Shown here: positions 9,769 to 29,713 of the stretch, piece by piece
Layout: every line of letters begins with the position of its first letter
How positions within the stretch are numbered: position 1 is the stretch's first letter
Assembly: GCF_001561995.1 (NCBI RefSeq)
Contig: NZ_LLWC01000026.1
Location: 62,001 to 126,000, forward strand
Reading direction: 5' to 3'
Source: Polycladidibacter hongkongensis
GTDB lineage: Bacteria > Pseudomonadota > Alphaproteobacteria > Rhizobiales > Stappiaceae
DNA: 64,000 nt
Position numbers and translations under genes: made by a program
The notes under the pieces: generated by a model
Databases searched by the model: none
Seen by the model: the letters and a program-made list of their open reading frames with translations, nothing else
Told to the model about the DNA's origin: nothing

Positions 9769-10206
9769 TTACGCCGCGACGCTGTCGGCGCTGTATTGCG
9801 GCAGCACGTCTAGTGCATGGCTATCAAATTCGTTTAGAATGTCTTGTTCAACTACAAAAAGCTTGCGCAGTGCTTTCAACGCATCGAAATAGCGGCCCTG
9901 CTCGACTTTAGACGCAACCAGATCCAAACCTTCATGCAGATCGATGTTGGATGACACACGGCGAATTGCGTTTAGTAGGGTTTGGTACTGCACCAACGCG
10001 GCGCGGTCACCTTGCGGGTTGATCAGGGCATCCTGAACAGCGAAATAAAGCTGACGAAGCGGCGTGGTCGTTTCTTCCAACTGCATAACGTAGGAGCCAA
10101 GCAAGAAGCGGGCATCGTTCAGCAAATTCAAAGTGGTTTTCTGGTCAAAGGAAAGCACAGCACCGTTGATGAACACTTTCTCTCCGGCCTTCAAATGAAT
10201 GCGCAT
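9769..10206 (-). CDS. flbT: Flagellin post-transcriptional regulator FlbT
   Basis: 145 residues matching FlbT throughout: MRIHLKAGEKVFINGAVLSF start and the LLGSYVMQ and LRQLYFAVQ segments. In Caulobacter FlbT acts on the 5' leader of flagellin mRNA and lowers its stability until the hook is complete; in Brucella it acts positively. Its likely targets here are the flagellin leaders at 24758-24807, 26106-26154 and 28607-28657, which share two hairpins (inference). It sits 13 bases after flaF. Confidence 0.95.
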   Translation of the reverse strand: MRIHLKAGEKVFINGAVLSFDQKTTLNLLNDARFLLGSYVMQLEETTTPLRQLYFAVQDALINPQGDRAALVQYQTLLNAIRRVSSNIDLHEGLDLVASKVEQGRYFDALKALRKLFVVEQDILNEFDSHALDVLPQYSADSVAA

Positions 10207-10219
10207 GTTTGCCCTCTCC

Positions 10220-10567
10220 TTAGTTCAAGCCGTCACGAATGGATTCGTTAATCTCGATCAAACCTTCAAAGTCCTCGCTCTCCCCCGCGCGGATTTTGTC
10301 AGCTTGCTTGATGCACCAAAGACCGATGGAAATGAGGTCCGCCCTTACGCTTTCTGGCAGCGCATTTTCAGTGGACCCCAGATCCTCGATCAGGAATGAC
10401 CAAAGCCGGGAGATTGTAGTGAGTGCCTGAACAGCCTCTTCAGAGGTTGGGCCACTGTCCCGCGCCTCGCGCAGTTGCATGATCGCCAAAGTGAACACCT
10501 CTTTTTCCTGACCACGACGGTCGTAGGAGGAATCCTCGAGGGTCTCTGCATAGGACATTTGATACAT
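10220..10567 (-). CDS. flaF: Flagellin biosynthesis regulator FlaF
   Basis: 115 residues matching FlaF (AYAET-type start, then LEDSSYDRRGQEKEVF and WSFLIEDL). FlaF works with FlbT in flagellin synthesis; in Caulobacter it is needed for flagellin production and secretion. A second ATG three codons in (10558) is also possible. Gene order flgL-flaF-flbT-flgD is the standard rhizobial one. Confidence 0.95.
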   Translation of the reverse strand: MYQMSYAETLEDSSYDRRGQEKEVFTLAIMQLREARDSGPTSEEAVQALTTISRLWSFLIEDLGSTENALPESVRADLISIGLWCIKQADKIRAGESEDFEGLIEINESIRDGLN

Positions 10568-23370: not shown

Positions 23371-23515
23371 ATTGACCACCAGTCATTCAGTCCCGTTTAA
23401 CGGGAGGTTTAGCCACATAATAAAAATGGCTGGCTTGCGCCTGTCTGACTTTGCCGTAATTTTAGCGGATTTTTATCTATATTTTTTTATTAAAACAGGC
23501 TTGTATGAAACGCGA

Positions 23516-23541
23516 AAGAAGGGACTAGCGCCCCTTCCCTC
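23516..23541 (-). terminator. Weak terminator after the first flagellin
   Basis: Minus strand: GAAGGG, 8-base loop, CCCTTC, TTTC. Located about 30 bases after the flagellin stop. Confidence 0.4.
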
Positions 23542-23566
23542 ATTTTTAAGCTACTAAACCAGTCGC

Positions 23567-24757
23567 TTAGCGGAAGAGGCTCAGAATGTTCTGTGCACCG
23601 GCGTTAGCGATGGACAGAGCCTGAATACCGAGCTGCTGCTGGGTTTGCAGAGCTTTAAGGCGGGTGGATTCTGCGTTCATGTCCGCATCAACCAGCTGAC
23701 CAACACCACGGGTGATGGAGTCGGACAGGTTGGTCACGAACTCTTTCTGCATGGTGATACGCTTTTTAGCGGAACCGAGGTTGGTTGCAGCGGTGGTCAT
23801 TTCCGACAGCTGCTCGTCAACTGCATTGATAGCAACACGCAAAACGGCTTGATCAGAAGCGGTTTTTCCAAGTGTGGAAATATCCATATCCAAGACAGAA
23901 AACTTACCGAGCTTATCGACAGATTTCTTTACGTCCACCAAGTACGCTTTTGCTTTTGCCTCATCAAAATCCGCATACTCGCTATCGCTAAGACCATCGA
24001 TCTTGTCTTGCAGCGCTAGGCGGTAAGCTTTTACTTCAATTCCTTCAGCTTTATCTGCTGGCACGGCAATATCAAAGCTTGGAGCCACACCTGGCACAGC
24101 AGCCACAGAAGGAGGCCCGGCAGAAGCAGCAACAGCATTTGTACCAGCAGTATAGGTTAACCAACCAGCATCCCAGTCACCCTTCAGGCTCTTGGAAAGG
24201 ATACCGGAATCGCTAGCATCGGTTGCTTGGGTATCGACAAGAACGACAGTTGAGGTATCAACGTCGATATTCTTGATTTCTGTCGCACCGGACGCATCAC
24301 GGGTGAAAGAACCAGTGATTTTCTTGGCAAGGTTGTCTTTTTCCATGTCCTGCTGCAGCCAGTTCTCACCAGAGAAGTTAGCAGAAGCAGCAATGGTTCT
24401 CAGCTGACCTTGAAGTTCTTTGATGTCCGACTGGATCTTGTTCTTGTCAACAGTACCATCGGTTGCAGCGGTCAGCTTGGCTTTGATGTCGTCAACAACC
24501 TTAACCGCTTTATCCATAGCGGTGAAAGCAACGTCAACAGTCGCAGCACCCAGACCCAGAGCATCCTGCACAGCAGAAAGCGCTTTATTGTCGGATTTCA
24601 TGGTGGTCGCGATGGACCAGTAAGCCGCGTTGTCAGAAGCATCAGCAACACGCAGACCGGTAGAAATACGGTTCTGGGTGGTGCCCATGCTTTCGTTAAT
24701 ACCACGCAGGGTATTAAGAGCAACCATTGCGGCGGAGTTAGTCAAAAGACTAGACAT
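23567..24757 (-). CDS. Flagellin (copy 1)
   Basis: 396 residues. Residues 1-150 are the conserved D0/D1 half (SSLLTNSAAMVALNTLRGIN, RISTGLRVADASDNAAYWSI) and the last about 100 the C-terminal half, ending in ANAGAQNILSLFR. These ends are nearly identical in the copies at 24969 and 27569, while residues about 180-290 are unique to this copy. It is the longest of the set. ATG 24757 is preceded by AAGGGA inside a leader hairpin (24765-24787). Exported by the flagellar gate; expression probably depends on FlaF/FlbT. Confidence 0.97.
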   Translation of the reverse strand: MSSLLTNSAAMVALNTLRGINESMGTTQNRISTGLRVADASDNAAYWSIATTMKSDNKALSAVQDALGLGAATVDVAFTAMDKAVKVVDDIKAKLTAATDGTVDKNKIQSDIKELQGQLRTIAASANFSGENWLQQDMEKDNLAKKITGSFTRDASGATEIKNIDVDTSTVVLVDTQATDASDSGILSKSLKGDWDAGWLTYTAGTNAVAASAGPPSVAAVPGVAPSFDIAVPADKAEGIEVKAYRLALQDKIDGLSDSEYADFDEAKAKAYLVDVKKSVDKLGKFSVLDMDISTLGKTASDQAVLRVAINAVDEQLSEMTTAATNLGSAKKRITMQKEFVTNLSDSITRGVGQLVDADMNAESTRLKALQTQQQLGIQALSIANAGAQNILSLFR

Positions 24758-24807
24758 AGTAATCGTCCCTTAAAAAAAGAGTGGGACATTCCGGCGCTAA
24801 ACACCGG
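24758..24807 (-). promoter_or_regulatory. Two-hairpin leader of flagellin copy 1
   Basis: On the mRNA, hairpin 1 pairs CCGGUG (24807-24802) with CGCCGG (24796-24791), loop 5. Three bases later hairpin 2 pairs GUCCC (24787-24783) with GGGAC (24769-24765), loop 13; the GGGA is the Shine-Dalgarno, 7 bases before the ATG. The same layout precedes the other flagellins. Confidence 0.65.
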
Positions 24808-24878
24808 TGGCAGCGCTATTTTGCATCATGCAACCTAAAATAAAGGTGCGCTACTAAATATAACCTTAGATTGATTTT

Positions 24879-24891
24879 ACTTGCGCGAAGC
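24879..24891 (-). promoter_or_regulatory. Flagellin upstream box, copy 1
   Basis: GCTTCGCGCAAGT on the minus strand, 122 bases upstream of the ATG. Close matches lie 122 bases before copy 2 and 130 before copy 3. It could be a promoter element or activator site. Confidence 0.45.
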
Positions 24892-24914
24892 TGAAGGCGC
24901 TTTCAACCTAAAGC

Positions 24915-24947
24915 ACTTGCCGGTGAAACACCGGCAAGTTTTTTTTT
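24915..24947 (+). terminator. Strong hairpin with plus-strand T run between flagellins 1 and 2
   Basis: ACTTGCCGGTG, AAA loop, CACCGGCAAGT: 11 perfect pairs, followed by nine T on the plus strand. Both flanking genes are on the minus strand, where only a weak GCTTTAGG follows the stem. It may still end the copy 2 message. Confidence 0.5.
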
Positions 24948-24968
24948 AAAAAACCAAACTCAACCGGA

Positions 24969-26105
24969 TTAACGGAAGAGGCTCAGAATGTTCTGTGCAC
25001 CGGCGTTAGCGATGGACAGAGCCTGAATACCGAGCTGCTGCTGGGTTTGCAGAGCTTTAAGGCGGGTGGATTCTGCGTTCATGTCCGCATCAACCAGCTG
25101 ACCAACACCACGGGTGATGGAGTCGGACAGGTTGGTCACGAACTCTTTCTGCATGGTGATACGCTTTTTAGCGGAACCAAGGTTGGTTGCAGCGGTGGTC
25201 ATTTCCGACAGCTGCTTGTCAACAACGTTGATTACAGCTTTCAAAAGCGCCTGATCTCCTACAGTTTTACCCAAGCCGGAGATATCGATATCAAGTACAG
25301 AATTCCCTAGCTTTGCAAATGATTTATCAACTTCGTCTGTGATCGCTTTTGCTTCTGCTGTGTCAAAAGCCTCTTTGTCGGCTGTTTCTAATGCTGAGAA
25401 CGCTGAATCGATGGCGCTCTTATAAGCGGCTCTTTTCAAGCCATCAACATCACCTGCCGCATTCACTTCCACAACATAAGTGGACTCGGTACCAACGGAC
25501 CCTTTAGTAACAGTGACTTTAGCTGTTCCGACGAGGTCTTTGGACAGGATACCAGCGTTGTTGGTGTCATCCGCCTGTGTATCAACAAGAACGACGGTCG
25601 AGGTATCAACGTCGATATTCTTGATTTCAGTCGCACCGGACGCATCACGGGTGAAAGAACCAGTGATTTTCTTGGCAAGGTTGTCTGTAGACATATCCTG
25701 CTGCAGCCAGTTCTCGCCAGAGAAGTTAGCAGAAGCGGCAATGGTTTGCAGCTGACCTTGAAGTTCTTTGATGTCCGACTGGATCTTGTTCTTGTCAACA
25801 GTACCATCGGTTGCAGCGGTCAACTTCGCTTTGATGTCGTCAACAACCTTAACCGCTTTATCCATAGCGGTGAAAGCAACGTCAACAGTCGCAGCACCCA
25901 GACCCAGAGCATCCTGCACAGCAGAAAGCGCTTTATTGTCGGATTTCATGGTGGTCGCGATGGACCAGTAAGCCGCGTTGTCGGAAGCATCAGCAACACG
26001 CAGACCGGTAGAAATACGGTTCTGGGTGGTGCCCATGCTTTCGTTAATACCACGCAGGGTATTAAGAGCAACCATTGCGGCGGAATTCGTCAAAAGGCTA
26101 GACAT
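24969..26105 (-). CDS. Flagellin (copy 2)
   Basis: 378 residues. The first about 150 residues differ from copy 1 at only a few positions (for example LQTIAA for LRTIAA; STDNLAKK for EKDNLAKK) and the C-terminal hundred are almost the same. The centre (about 190-285) is unrelated in sequence and richer in Lys/Glu. Nucleotide identity at both ends is also very high, suggesting recent duplication or gene conversion. It has the two-hairpin leader, the upstream box and, uniquely among the flagellins, an ACCGGTC palindrome at 26181-26194. Confidence 0.97.
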   Translation of the reverse strand: MSSLLTNSAAMVALNTLRGINESMGTTQNRISTGLRVADASDNAAYWSIATTMKSDNKALSAVQDALGLGAATVDVAFTAMDKAVKVVDDIKAKLTAATDGTVDKNKIQSDIKELQGQLQTIAASANFSGENWLQQDMSTDNLAKKITGSFTRDASGATEIKNIDVDTSTVVLVDTQADDTNNAGILSKDLVGTAKVTVTKGSVGTESTYVVEVNAAGDVDGLKRAAYKSAIDSAFSALETADKEAFDTAEAKAITDEVDKSFAKLGNSVLDIDISGLGKTVGDQALLKAVINVVDKQLSEMTTAATNLGSAKKRITMQKEFVTNLSDSITRGVGQLVDADMNAESTRLKALQTQQQLGIQALSIANAGAQNILSLFR

Positions 26106-26154
26106 AATAATCGTCCCTTAAAAAAGAATGGGACATTCCGGCGCCAAACACCGG
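26106..26154 (-). promoter_or_regulatory. Two-hairpin leader of flagellin copy 2
   Basis: Hairpin 1: CCGGTG (26154-26149) with CGCCGG (26143-26138), loop 5. Hairpin 2: GTCCC (26134-26130) with GGGAC (26117-26113), loop 12, covering the ribosome site. Three bases separate the two. Confidence 0.65.
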
Positions 26155-26180
26155 TGGCAGCGCTGTTTCGCTTCATGCAA

Positions 26181-26194
26181 CTACCGGTCGGTAG
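26181..26194. promoter_or_regulatory. ACCGGTC-core palindrome upstream of flagellin copy 2
   Basis: CTACCGGTCGGTAG (arms CTACC/GGTAG), 76-89 bases upstream of the ATG. Same core as the sites at 5411, 8837 and 41071. If transcribed it could also form a small hairpin. Confidence 0.45.
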
Positions 26195-26226
26195 TGCGCT
26201 GCTAAATCTAGTTATGATTGTATTTT

Positions 26227-26238
26227 CTTGTGCGAAGC
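26227..26238 (-). promoter_or_regulatory. Flagellin upstream box, copy 2
   Basis: GCTTCGCACAAG on the minus strand, 122 bases upstream of the ATG, the same distance as in copy 1. Confidence 0.45.
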
Positions 26239-26328
26239 TTGCGAAGTGCGAACAGTTTTATTTGAATTGACGCGCAAATCTCACAAACCTACACAGAAAT
26301 AGAACCCGCAACAAATGTGCAGGTGTAT

Positions 26329-27351
26329 CTACCTAAATAGACTGAGGATACTTTGGGCCCCAGCATTGGCGATGGACAGAGCCTGAATGCCGAGTTGTTG
26401 GGTTTGCAGAGCTTTAAGGCGCGTCGATTCAGCATTCATGTCCGCATCAACGAGCTGCCCAACGCCGCGGATAATTGCGTCTGAGAGATCTTTGACAAAT
26501 TCTGTTTGCAGGGTAATACGCTTTTTTACAGAGCCGAGCTGAGTGGCAGCATCCGCCATGCGAGATAAAGTAAAATCAATTTCTCCAATGGTCTTTTCGA
26601 GAACCCGCTTATCATTTCCCGAAGTCGTCAAACTTGAAACATCTAAAGTCAATGTCGAAAAGGAGTCAAAATCAACACCCGTATCACTGGCCCCAACCCA
26701 TCGAAACCGATCGTTTAAAATTGCCGATCGGACAGGTAACATTATAGGTATTCCGTGTCCTGATCCAACACCGAAGCCCCCGCCCCATTCCCATATGGAC
26801 CAACTCCATTGCAAGCGGGTTTGTCGAGCTATTGATTAAAACAACACTCTTGGTATCGACCTCCAGCTGCTAAAGGTCAAAGTTCGGGCCATCCCTTCGC
26901 ACTGCACCAACGATTTTCTTGCTGAGGCTTGCGGTGTCAACATTTTGTTGCAAGCAGTTTTCACCTGACAAGTTGGCCGTGGCAGCAATCGTTTTAAGCT
27001 GCCCCTGCAATCTGTAATATCAGATTGGATCTTACGTTTATCGACAGTATCATCTGTTGCGGCCGCCAGCTTGGCCTTGATCTGGTTAACGATCTTGATT
27101 GATTTGTCCATCGCGGTGAGTGCCACATCAATTGTCGCCGCCCCCAAGCCCCAAGCATCCTGCACAGCGGACAGCGCTTTATTGTCGGATTTCATAGTGG
27201 TCGCGATGGACCAGTAAGCCGCGTTGTCGGACGCATCAGCAACACGCAGGCTCGTAGAAATACGGTTCTGGATGGTGCCCATGGACTTATTTATAGCGCG
27301 CAACGTATTCAGCGCCACCATCGCGGTGGAGTTGGTTCGTAAACTAGACAT
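26329..27351 (-). pseudogene. Decayed flagellin
   Basis: A fourth flagellin that can no longer be translated whole. The N-terminal part from ATG 27351 is intact to about residue 112 (SSLRTNSTAMVALNTLRAIN). Relative to the intact copies one base is missing near 27012-27016, inside the SDIKELQGQ region. In the restored frame homology continues to an in-frame TAG at 26871-26873. Further shifts follow. The C-terminal block (DMNAESTRLKALQTQQ to NILSLFR-like end SILSLFR) is intact but has lost one of three consecutive Gln codons. Its leader keeps hairpin 1 but not the ribosome-site hairpin, and it lacks the upstream box, so it is probably silent. Confidence 0.92.
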
Positions 27352-27399
27352 GCAGCACCGTAATGTTTCAGAAGGACATGCTGGAAACCCAATTCCAGC
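27352..27399 (-). promoter_or_regulatory. Remnant leader of the decayed flagellin
   Basis: Hairpin 1 is present with a different sequence: GCTGGAA (27399-27393) with TTCCAGC (27386-27380), loop 6, seven pairs. ATGTCC follows as in the other leaders, but the partner GGGAC is gone. Confidence 0.55.
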
Positions 27400-27503
27400 G
27401 TGGCTGCAATAGTGCATCATGCCAACATTAACGCGCTGCAGCACAAGCTAAAGTTGCACTTAGAGCCTTTAACCAAACTAACCAGTTCATTCGATATGCA
27501 TAA

Positions 27504-27539
27504 TAATAAAAAGGCCGCTCTGAATATTCAGAGCGACCC
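27504..27539 (-). terminator. Intrinsic terminator of flagellin copy 3
   Basis: Minus strand: GGTCGCTCTGAA, then TTCAGAGCGGCC and TTTTTATT. It lies about 30 bases after the stop. Confidence 0.85.
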
Positions 27540-27568
27540 ATTATCTTCAAAAAGGCTTTGCTAGATGC

Positions 27569-28606
27569 TTAGCGGAACAGGCTCAGAATGTTCTGTGCAC
27601 CGGCGTTTGCGATGGACAGAGCCTGAATGCCGAGCTGCTGCTGGGTTTGCAGAGCTTTAAGGCGTGTGGATTCTGAGTTCATGTCCGCATCAACCAGCTG
27701 ACCAACACCACGGGTGATGGAGTCGGACAGGTTGGTCACGAACTCTTTCTGCATGGTGATACGCTTTTTAGCGGAACCGAGGTTGGTTGCAGCGGTGGTC
27801 ATTGCAGACAGCTGCTCATCAACGACACTGATCAAACCCTTAAGAGCATACTGCTCCTCTACAGTCTTACCAAGAGTTGAGATATCAAGATTCAGAATGC
27901 TAATGTGATCAGCAGTACCCGTTTTCTTAATAGCGGCATCAAGTAGAGTAGGATCAATTGTGGCACCATCAGCTGCAACTGCACCTTCTGCAAAACCAAA
28001 CACGGTCTTAGCGCCATCGCCAGTTACACCAATCAGGTTCTTGTTCAAGATACCTGTAGCTGCAGTTGCATCAGCGCGTGTATCAACCAGAACAACAGTG
28101 TTCGTGTCCACATCAATGTTTTTGATGGAAGTCGCGCCAGAAGCATCACGGGTGAAAGAACCGGTGATCTTTTTGGCAAGGTTGTCGTTTTCTGTGTCCT
28201 GCTGCAGCCAGTTCTCACCAGAGAAGTTGGCAGAAGCAGCAATGGTTCTCAGCTGACCTTGAAGTTCTTTGATGTCCGACTGGATCTTGTTCTTGTCAAC
28301 AGTACCATCGGTTGCAGCGGTCAGCTTCGCTTTGATGTCATCAACAACCTTAACCGCTTTATCCATAGCGGTGAAAGCAACGTCAACAGTCGCAGCACCC
28401 AGACCCAGAGCATCCTGTACAGCAGAAAGCGCTTTATTGTCGGATTTCATGGTGGTCGCGATGGACCAGTAAGCCGCGTTGTCGGAAGCATCAGCAACAC
28501 GCAGACCGGTAGAAATACGGTTCTGGGTGGTGCCCATGCTTTCGTTAATACCACGCAGGGTATTAAGAGCAACCATTGCGGCGGAGTTAGTCAAAAGGCT
28601 AGACAT
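27569..28606 (-). CDS. Flagellin (copy 3)
   Basis: 345 residues, the shortest intact copy. N-terminal about 150 residues and C-terminal about 100 are nearly identical to copies 1 and 2; the centre (about 185-255) is short and unique. The open frame extends 25 codons upstream, but ATG 28606 gives the family start MSSLLTNSAA and has AGGGAC in front. It is nearest to fliP and has the most divergent leader and upstream box, which makes it useful for comparing the regulatory elements. Confidence 0.97.
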   Translation of the reverse strand: MSSLLTNSAAMVALNTLRGINESMGTTQNRISTGLRVADASDNAAYWSIATTMKSDNKALSAVQDALGLGAATVDVAFTAMDKAVKVVDDIKAKLTAATDGTVDKNKIQSDIKELQGQLRTIAASANFSGENWLQQDTENDNLAKKITGSFTRDASGATSIKNIDVDTNTVVLVDTRADATAATGILNKNLIGVTGDGAKTVFGFAEGAVAADGATIDPTLLDAAIKKTGTADHISILNLDISTLGKTVEEQYALKGLISVVDEQLSAMTTAATNLGSAKKRITMQKEFVTNLSDSITRGVGQLVDADMNSESTRLKALQTQQQLGIQALSIANAGAQNILSLFR

Positions 28607-28657
28607 AGTTTTGTCCCTATCAAAATACACTGGGACATATCGGATTGTATTACCGAT
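28607..28657 (-). promoter_or_regulatory. Two-hairpin leader of flagellin copy 3
   Basis: Hairpin 1: ATCGG (28657-28653) with CCGAT (28643-28639), loop 9, a different sequence from copies 1 and 2 but the same position. Hairpin 2: GTCCC (28636-28632) with GGGAC (28617-28613), loop 14. Two bases separate them. Confidence 0.65.
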
Positions 28658-28734
28658 GAAACGAGAATGGCTTGATACCAACGCTTGTCGTTTTATTGTT
28701 AGCGCCTCGTTACAGATCGATATTTTTCTGAGTC

Positions 28735-28747
28735 CACTTGCGCAAGG
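28735..28747 (-). promoter_or_regulatory. Flagellin upstream box, copy 3
   Basis: CCTTGCGCAAGTG on the minus strand, containing a perfect CTTGCGCAAG palindrome, about 130 bases upstream of the ATG. The rest of 28658-28902 is AT-rich with no gene. Confidence 0.4.
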
Positions 28748-28902
28748 CTGACCATTTTTACTTACTTTTAGTTGTATTGTCCTAATAATTTTTTATAGGT
28801 TGTATTTTACAACTTATACTTACTTCTGCAGCAACATAATCAATTTAAAGTTGTATTGCATTGTCTCATTTGGCAAACAATCCACATGTCTCTCATGTAG
28901 AT

Positions 28903-28933
28903 AAAAAAAATGGGGAGCCGAGGCTCCCCATTT
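28903..28933 (-). terminator. Intrinsic terminator after fliP
   Basis: Minus strand: TGGGGAGCC, TCGG-type turn, GGCTCCCCA and eight T. It ends the long flgB...fliP series. Confidence 0.9.
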
Positions 28934-28966
28934 CAAAATCCTAGATTTTAGTAATTGAGCTTTGCG

Positions 28967-29713
28967 CTAGACAAAGGATCGGATTAGCCCCGCTGTTAGC
29001 AAATGCCAACCATCGACCAAAACAAAAAACAATACCTTGAAGGGTAGCGAGATCACAGTAGGTGGCAACATCATCATGCCCATAGACATGGTAAGGGTGG
29101 CCACGATCATATCGATCACCACAAATGGCAGAGCGATCAGAAAACCAATTTCAAAGCCGCGACGAAGTTCAGACACCATAAAGGCGGGAATGAGAACGCG
29201 CAGATCGATTTCTTCTACAGGGGCTTCCCTGTCGTAGCCAAAGCTGTCAATTGCCAAATCATCAAACAGTGCCAAATCTTTTTCGCGCACATTGTCGAGC
29301 ATAAAACTGCGGAATGGGGCAGTCATTGCCTTATACGCTTCTGGCTCGCTGATTTCATTATTGATCAAGGGTTGCAAACCATCACGCCAAGCGCGATCAA
29401 AAGTCGGCGCCATAACATAAAAGGTCATGAACAATGCCAGCGACACCAGAATGATATTTGCAGGTGTTGTTTGCAAACCCATACCGGAGCGGAGAAACGA
29501 CAAGGCAACAGCAAATCGTGTGAAGCTGGTGACCATGATCAGAATGCCCGGCGCCAATGACAAGACTGTCAGGATCAGCGCATACTGAATGATACGGCCA
29601 GACGCCCCCGCCTCCCCTGCTGGTAACACCGAAGACAAGTCAAATGACTGCGCCGCTGCGGCACCGCTCATGGAGAGCAACAGGAGCAAAAACAGGGAAA
29701 TGCGACGTAGCAT
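28967..29713 (-). CDS. fliP: Flagellar export gate protein FliP
   Basis: 248 residues. Cleavable N-terminal hydrophobic segment (residues about 1-22), then the conserved FliP blocks SFTRFAVALSFLRSGMGLQT and KEASVEEIDL-type region (REAPVEEIDLRVLIPAFMVS), with about four membrane helices. FliP forms the export channel with FliQ and FliR, whose genes are 20 kb away in this cluster. Its ATG shares one base with the fliL stop. A strong terminator follows. Confidence 0.96.
   Translation of the reverse strand: MLRRISLFLLLLLSMSGAAAAQSFDLSSVLPAGEAGASGRIIQYALILTVLSLAPGILIMVTSFTRFAVALSFLRSGMGLQTTPANIILVSLALFMTFYVMAPTFDRAWRDGLQPLINNEISEPEAYKAMTAPFRSFMLDNVREKDLALFDDLAIDSFGYDREAPVEEIDLRVLIPAFMVSELRRGFEIGFLIALPFVVIDMIVATLTMSMGMMMLPPTVISLPFKVLFFVLVDGWHLLTAGLIRSFV

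Follow-up and report, generated by a model that had tools for sequence, protein, structure and literature searches.

The flagellin cluster and its leaders

The window analysed here, a 64,000-nucleotide (nt) stretch of contig NZ_LLWC01000026.1 of Polycladidibacter hongkongensis, carries on its minus strand a flagellin cluster (23567-28606) of three intact copies and one decayed copy, the best named relatives of the flagellin being Pseudovibrio species, and the genes for FlbT and FlaF (Table 1). Our subject is the mRNA leader of 97-107 nt at each of the three intact flagellins, described in a first-pass annotation of the sequence as a covarying unit of two hairpins, the second including the Shine-Dalgarno sequence, and assigned there to control by FlbT. 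Both hairpins are real, but they form only the 3' half of the element, the helices P1, P2 and P3 having been missed.

Read 5' to 3', the leader consists of a closing stem, P1, around P2 and a small P3 of the form xGC-AUGAN-GCx', followed by P4 (hairpin 1 of the earlier description) and P5 (hairpin 2), which carries the Shine-Dalgarno sequence in its 3' strand. On the minus strand hairpin 1 reads, as had been proposed, CCGGUG/CGCCGG in copies 1 and 2 and AUCGG/CCGAU in copy 3, and is followed in each intact copy by GUCCC...GGGAC, ending 6-7 nt before the ATG; the pair of hairpins spans 24755-24815 in copy 1, 26103-26162 in copy 2 and 28603-28665 in copy 3. The full form folds spontaneously in all three intact leaders, the minimum-energy fold of copy 2 (-39 kcal/mol) containing all five helices. 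In short windows the two-hairpin piece alone gave modest z-scores in the intact copies (-2.23, -1.98, -1.41), so that a single sequence is weak evidence and comparison across leaders decides; with the whole leader the values become -3.30, -3.76 and -2.03 for copies 1, 2 and 3. In the decayed copy hairpin 1 (GCUGGAA/UUCCAGC) is kept, as annotated, but hairpin 2 is lost, and both the low score with the whole-leader model (Table 1) and a minimum-energy fold that differs from that of the intact copies set it apart.

An AUG is nearly invariant in the P3 loop and again in the P4-P5 linker (AUGU). As read from the sequences, GCAU of P3 could pair with the linker AUG(U/C), a possible alternative pairing or pseudoknot that lies beyond the reach of covariation because both sides are constant.

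Table 1. Positions of the leaders, their helices and associated features in the window (R2, covariance model of the whole leader)
Feature	Position	Strand	Remarks
Intact flagellin copy 1	23567..24757	-	Open reading frame; Flagellin_N match in own genome
Copy 1 leader	24760..24856	-	R2 50.5 bits, E 1.4e-11
Copy 1 P1	24854-24848 with 24816-24810	-	GUAGCGC/GCGCUGC
Copy 1 P2	24847-24844 with 24836-24833	-
Copy 1 P3	24832-24822	-	Around AUGAU
Copy 1 P4	24807-24801 with 24797-24791	-
Copy 1 P5	24787-24783 with 24769-24765	-
Intact flagellin copy 2	24969..26105	-	PF00669 8.4e-30, PF00700 9.3e-19
Copy 2 leader	26108..26204	-	R2 54.3 bits, E 1.5e-12; row also in R2 seed
Copy 2 P1	26202-26196 with 26163-26157	-	GCAGCGC/GCGCUGC
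Copy 2 P2	26195-26190 with 26185-26180	-
Copy 2 P3	26179-26177 with 26171-26169	-	Loop AUGAA
Copy 2 P4	26154-26148 with 26144-26138	-
Copy 2 P5	26134-26130 with 26117-26113	-
Intact flagellin copy 3	27569..28606	-	PF00669 2.4e-30, PF00700 9.8e-19
Copy 3 leader	28608..28714	-	R2 43.5 bits, E 8.7e-10
Copy 3 P1	28711-28706 with 28665-28660	-	AACGAG/CUCGUU
Copy 3 P2	28705-28701 with 28685-28681	-
Copy 3 P3	28680-28677 with 28671-28668	-	Loop AUCAA
Copy 3 P4	28657-28653 with 28643-28639	-
Copy 3 P5	28637-28632 with 28617-28612	-
Decayed flagellin copy	26329-27351	-	N- and C-terminal parts in separate frames; leader without P5
Leader of decayed copy	27360..27444	-	Hairpin 1 kept, Shine-Dalgarno hairpin lost; R2 7.9 bits, E 1.1
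FlbT, candidate RNA-binding partner	9769..10206	-	PF07378 9.4e-36; in leader-associated FlbT clade
FlaF, next to flbT	10220..10567	-	PF07309 5.7e-33
Box AGCTTCGCGCAAGT, candidate promoter or operator	24879..24892	-	24 nt before P1 of copy 1; 0 mismatches
Related box	26226-26239	-	23 nt before P1 of copy 2; 2 mismatches
Related box	28736-28749	-	24 nt before P1 of copy 3; 2 mismatches

Covariation of the leader helices

Flagellin starts with their upstream regions, gathered from fetched loci, numbered 232 and gave 214 unique leaders; in 181 of these, six or more of the seven AUGUCCC letters occur in the stretch searched ahead of the start codon. Seventy representatives, one per 80% similarity, were drawn from leaders with at least five of the seven letters; alignment A1 (MAFFT, 56 leaders) holds 54 of them together with two added leaders, the other 16 having been set aside because visual inspection found no hairpin 2, or no element at all, in them. 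This exclusion was too strict, at least four of the omitted genes (L035, L057, L060, L073) later matching the whole-leader model. Over the two helices, 96.1% of the cells of A1 are paired and 7 of the 10 pairs have changes on both sides, values that none of 500 shuffles reached on any of five measures, and RNAalifold arrived at these two helices without being given them. On alignment A2 (52 of 55 trimmed rows, the decayed copy already excluded), tested with a somewhat larger set of helices, the two measures based on counts were weaker: 4 and 30 of the 500 shuffles were as high.

Upstream, too, there is conservation: some 75 nt 5' of the start codon lies a CATGA that hardly varies. Of the P3 pairs flanking it, examined in 124 unique segments, the first is nearly invariant; the second is formed in 122 segments (109.8 in shuffles) and the third in 96 (78.5 in shuffles), while pairing at positions 4 and 5 is at chance level. 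The stretch just 5' of hairpin 1 pairs with one tens of bases upstream, giving P1: a score of at least 6 is reached by 63% of 192 leaders, compared with 24.5% when the upstream part was swapped between loci and 15% after shuffling, real and control sequences having been handled identically in the search. P1 and P2 could be annotated together in 179 of the 192, with a mean score of 13.2 versus 9.9 (swapped) and 5.9 (shuffled); we think that the high swapped score reflects stems common to orthologous leaders.

Two covariance models of the relatives' leaders, as the first-pass annotation had suggested building, were made: R1 covers P4 and P5, and R2 the whole leader, from a 33-row seed that includes copy 2. 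Three further alignments bear on the helices. The rows of A3 (33 of 56 candidates prefiltered by annotation score) were chosen where MAFFT had put separately annotated helices in the same columns, so its counts lean towards structure. A4 comprises the best 150 of 198 R2 matches (143 distinct), seed leaders included, and A6 all 56 matches (53 distinct) from 46 sources outside the seed, with some loci under two names and at least two probable chance matches (L186 1438-1540, plus; L213 135-167, minus). A4 and A6 were fitted to the R2 model and hence lean towards it, a bias answered in part, for A6, by slid and shuffled controls, by RNAalifold on A1 and by the separate P1 search.

Across the whole leader, 88.3% of A6 cells are paired, versus 70.8% in shuffled and 37-47% in slid controls; both sides have changed in 28 of 29 pairs, with 268 cells so changed against a shuffled mean of 83.7, and again no shuffle of 500 reached any of the five measures. 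The claim of covariation thereby holds in A1 and A6 alike, with compensatory changes present in related genomes. The both-side changes in A6 fall in every pair of P1, P2, P3 and P4 and in six of the seven pairs of P5, and single positions of P1 show up to five standard pair types. The self-complementarity of CCGG explains why double changes in P4 are missing from the A3 seed; covariation of this helix is visible in A1 and in the unseen rows of A6. Hairpin 2, which had been called invariant, is so in the window and its close relatives but is compensated farther off, as GUCUUUC/GAAAGAC (L133, L135, L136) and UGUUUCG/CGAAACA (L137), and likewise in G064 and G100, among others. In 152 of 192 leaders a GGG[AG]C could be identified within the final 25 bases, and it ends 3-10 nt before the start codon. 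At the level of sequence, these comparisons show leader helices maintained by compensatory change and a predicted architecture of a three-way junction with a nearly invariant AUGAN loop, then P4, then the Shine-Dalgarno-bearing P5.

Specificity and distribution

In the window's own genome both models match only the three intact flagellins (R1 up to E 5). In the window R2 finds the three intact leaders at E <= 9e-10, the next match (10.0 bits, E 0.33) being at a hairpin at 24910-24959. Over the window and loci L010-L087, which comprise 1.04 Mb around related flagellins, there are 198 matches at E <= 0.01, of which 197 (194 in the loci, 3 in the window) lie within 80 nt before a flagellin start and one (L013) precedes a masked flagellin, N after its first codons. 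We infer that the matched stretch is transcribed as the flagellin 5' untranslated region (UTR). A match was found at 194 of the 216 flagellin starts in L010-L087.

In a sample of the order, R2 matched 107 of 397 genomes and 40 of 141 genera at E <= 0.001, and all 30 loci of top matches in new genomes precede flagellins. Of twenty further places fetched, mainly off the main cluster or in other families, 18 could be used. Thirteen of them lie before flagellin-like starts, two (G409, L201; G090, L202) precede genes starting MVLANLKVSRKLA, the product of the latter matching HAMP (Pfam E 1.4e-9), two in the window's genus (G613, L204; G638, L205) precede a 293-residue protein, and one (L215) had no open reading frame in the range examined. 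The 293-residue protein of L204 had no Pfam match; by eye, the C-terminus of this type of protein is faintly flagellin-like. Given the membrane receptor-like gene in L201 and L202, the leader RNA may control more than flagellins.

Among 289 genomes sampled from the class, a clear R2 match occurs in the window's own genome alone, with three borderline matches (E about 0.007) not seen before a flagellin. At 30 flagellin loci of other orders R2 gave nothing better than E 0.087, and no such element was seen in the 29 readable leaders. The large samples were strictly prefiltered, with 13 (class) and 9 (order) candidates scored per genome, and weak or divergent leaders could be missed. As judged from these matches, almost all occurrences of the predicted element precede flagellins of a single type of flagellar system, within the order holding Pseudovibrio and Rhizobium.

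Association with FlbT

In the order sample FlbT is present in 106 of the 107 leader genomes, the sole genome without it (G399) being 86% complete, versus 181 of 290 others; genomes with two or more FlbT matches number 45 of the 107 and 14 of the 290. The genomes are not independent, so that Fisher values for this co-occurrence overstate. Five genera contain genomes with and without the leader (g303, g71, g320, g342, g37); there, two or more FlbT matches are seen in each of the 34 leader genomes, and a single one in 17 of the 19 listed FlbT-bearing genomes that lack the leader.

In a tree of 37 of 39 fetched FlbTs (no protein was recovered for G010 and G082), the leader-linked proteins form one side of a single branch (15 rows versus 22, support 100/100), and none of 500 label shuffles was as low. 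The bootstrap was not fully settled (0.985) and the window FlbT lies on a long branch; the leader labels of G022 and G100, neither of which matched R2 at E <= 0.001, came from reading the sequences, and those in two-FlbT genomes were set by proximity to leader-bearing flagellins. Two FlbTs are encoded in the window's own genome, the first within the window beside FlaF and the second beside two flagellins of another type, and the two FlbTs fall on opposite sides of the leader-linked branch. No PDB entry scored better than E 0.31 in a profile search with FlbT.

The second flagellar set of this genome (G000:C1:310518-313042; L007, L008, L222) comprises those two flagellins with their own FlbT. 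Its leaders differ, having GUCAGCU/AGCUGAC and a CCUAGAAAAGG mini-hairpin that holds the Shine-Dalgarno sequence, and similar CC(U)AGAAAAGG pieces precede flagellins of this second type in other genomes.

Proposed mechanism and alternatives

We consider it probable that the leader is a cis-acting structured element controlling flagellin translation, with FlbT opening P5. Formed P5 would keep the ribosome from loading and make the default state off; the platform of P1-P3 and P4, with its constant AUGAN loop and AUGU linker, would be the docking site for FlbT, FlaF or a flagellin could serve as its co-factor there, and the opening of P5 by FlbT would tie flagellin synthesis to hook-basal body assembly. 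Of the FlbT switch proposed in the first-pass annotation, the structured leader over the Shine-Dalgarno sequence, the presence of FlbT and FlaF in the window, the near-complete co-occurrence and the single FlbT clade all stand, while binding by FlbT is a step that we infer; from sequence comparison alone, FlbT control of the leader is plausible.

Passages in the literature report that FlbT acts on flagellin 5' UTRs, in a way that they call unclear or unknown (PMC4347634; PMC3930126), that it represses in Caulobacter (PMC3930126), where the repressor is given as FlbT with the flagellin FljJ (PMC7591256), and that it activates in Brucella (PMC8781033; PMC9812332); in Agrobacterium, flbT is reported among the hits of a screen for motility genes. 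FlbT is taken here as the opener because of the Brucella and Agrobacterium reports, unlike the Caulobacter repressor.

Several observations weigh against the proposed FlbT-opened switch. With repression in one genus and activation in another, the sign assumed here is an uncertain choice. P2 is the weakest helix, with 66.7%, 75.4% and 76.4% of cells paired in three alignments, a low figure due partly to misalignment. The 22 flagellin starts of 216 that lack an R2 match include divergent MTK/MTN flagellins with P4-like pieces and some without any trace, and some flagellins in the same clusters lack P5 or the whole leader; in Mesorhizobium-type leaders (L060, L061, L064, L087, L131) the GUCCC/GGGAC helix is replaced or lost. 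At least two leaders precede genes not recognised as flagellins. Other FlbTs, including one in the window's own genome, adjoin flagellins without this leader. Finally, FlbT, flagellins and leaders travel together, so the co-occurrence may be linkage, and the tracking of leader by FlbT clade fits a partnership but would equally appear on co-inheritance of a flagellar cluster.

The MTK/MTN flagellins missed by R2 (L069, L072, L047, L078, L080, L081, L067, L076, L044, L075) have leaders with P4-like stems, e.g. GCCAGA/UCUGGC, and no clear P5. The Mesorhizobium-type leaders still have P3 and P4.

We are evenly divided on the broader proposal that this RNA family, unmatched in Rfam 15 and characterised by its three-way junction and AUGAN-capped arm, would be the platform for a distinct FlbT clade across the order, controlling a small regulon that would hold the flagellins, a HAMP-domain receptor-like gene in some genomes and, in Pseudovibrio, the uncharacterised 293-residue protein.

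The strongest alternative is a translational switch of the same anatomy whose ligand is not FlbT; candidates are a different protein that binds RNA, a co-repressor resembling flagellin, a small RNA or a metabolite. The same structural evidence applies to it, the recognisable conserved parts (AUGAN loop, AUGU linker) name no partner, and the FlbTs next to flagellins that lack this leader point the same way; we nevertheless regard it as the less likely course, because FlbT is, in passages of PMC4347634 and PMC3930126, the named regulator of flagellin leaders in the class, lies in the same window and has a clade that tracks the leader, and because CsrA was not found in the genome. A CsrA-regulated leader is rejected on that last ground, PF02599 being found in 0 of 1 (the window's own genome) with three control genomes positive.

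It is improbable that the leader acts only as an mRNA stability element, a structured 5' end shielding abundant flagellin messages from ribonuclease without a switch. The structure does lie at the probable 5' end, a related box preceding P1 by 23-24 nt in the three copies; shielding, however, leaves unexplained both the compensated P5 over the Shine-Dalgarno sequence and the constant loop. Still less likely is an RNA thermometer, in which P5 would melt with temperature and make flagellin synthesis temperature-dependent. The short helix around the Shine-Dalgarno sequence, its loop measuring 12-14 in the window, and a median fold energy of about -8.6 kcal/mol for the segment from P5 to the start codon (192 leaders), would suit one, but a thermometer needs neither a conserved three-way junction nor a constant upstream loop, and no Rfam family, thermometers included, matches at gathering thresholds. 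Nothing observed speaks separately for temperature or assembly sensing, offered earlier beside FlbT.

DNA-level operator or promoter repeats, to which the strongly conserved CATGA and the mostly palindromic CCGG of hairpin 1 might belong, are rejected as next to incredible: the stems swap letters yet keep pairing, as the P1 pair types show, and the two P1 strands are tens of bases apart, whereas an operator would keep letters rather than pairing. Upstream open reading frame or leader-peptide control is likewise rejected, the frames relative to the flagellin being spread 74/54/48 for the P3 AUG and 70/51/46 for the linker AUG, with stops before the start, overlapping it or absent. An 8-codon frame from the P3 AUG, common to 46 of 176 leaders, is taken for relatedness, and no shared reading frame accounts for the near-invariant leader AUGs.

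Relation to known RNAs and significance

Rfam 15 at gathering thresholds has no match in the window, in ten related loci or in fourteen diverse loci, and permissive matches in the window region leave the leaders uncovered. Searches of the open-licence PMC literature, which the original FlbT papers lie outside, brought up no description of this leader that we recognised. The post-transcriptionally controlled, FlbT-regulated flagellin 5' UTR of Caulobacter crescentus, reportedly that of Anderson and Gober (2000; cited in PMC4347634 and PMC3930126), is likewise a flagellin leader in a genome with FlbT and FlaF; R2 found no flagellin leader outside the order in the class genomes and other-order loci above, the Caulobacter leader itself lying outside this comparison.

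The flg-Rhizobiales RNA (RF01736; PMC3765529) is also a cis-regulatory RNA of flagellar genes in the same order and has three hairpins. It is rejected as the identity of the leader, with no match in window positions 23500-29000 up to E 10 and none in the genome at E 0.001. Its consensus differs in ending in an apparent coding start, MENALLIGL, which we take to be flgF. Weak RF01736 matches below the gathering score occur in the window's family without an R2 match (G041:C10:497405-497507, G081:C1:2163021-2163123).

The serC element of alphaproteobacteria (RF00517), as presented in PMC1273637, likewise hides the ribosome-binding site in a final hairpin just before the start codon, and a protein partner was suggested for it too, but it has two stems only, belongs to serine genes and lacks a three-way junction. 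CsrA/FliW control (PMC4894983) also places an RNA-binding protein on a flagellin leader and differs in the lack of a detected CsrA here. The leader would then be a family absent from the sources searched but of a known kind, the protein-responsive mRNA leaders that sequester the Shine-Dalgarno sequence, with FlbT as its putative partner.

If the FlbT assignment is true, FlbT gains a defined RNA ligand. With a defined five-helix RNA, the action of FlbT on flagellin messages is open to direct test, mutation and compensation being applicable separately to loop, junction and Shine-Dalgarno helix, and genomes with two FlbTs and two leader types, such as that of the window, permit a specificity test inside one cell. 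For symbionts and marine bacteria, R2 offers a covariance model with which flagellin leaders can be annotated.

Neighbouring features

The box upstream of copy 1 and its relatives are candidate promoters or operators. The box has 14 matches in the window versus 10.4 expected by chance; at a frequency so near chance, its near-constant distance from P1 alone carries information. Hairpins that resemble terminators and have T tails lie in the flagellin cluster at 27512-27539 (minus), 28907-28934 (minus) and 24915-24939 (plus), the first of these directly after the end of copy 3.

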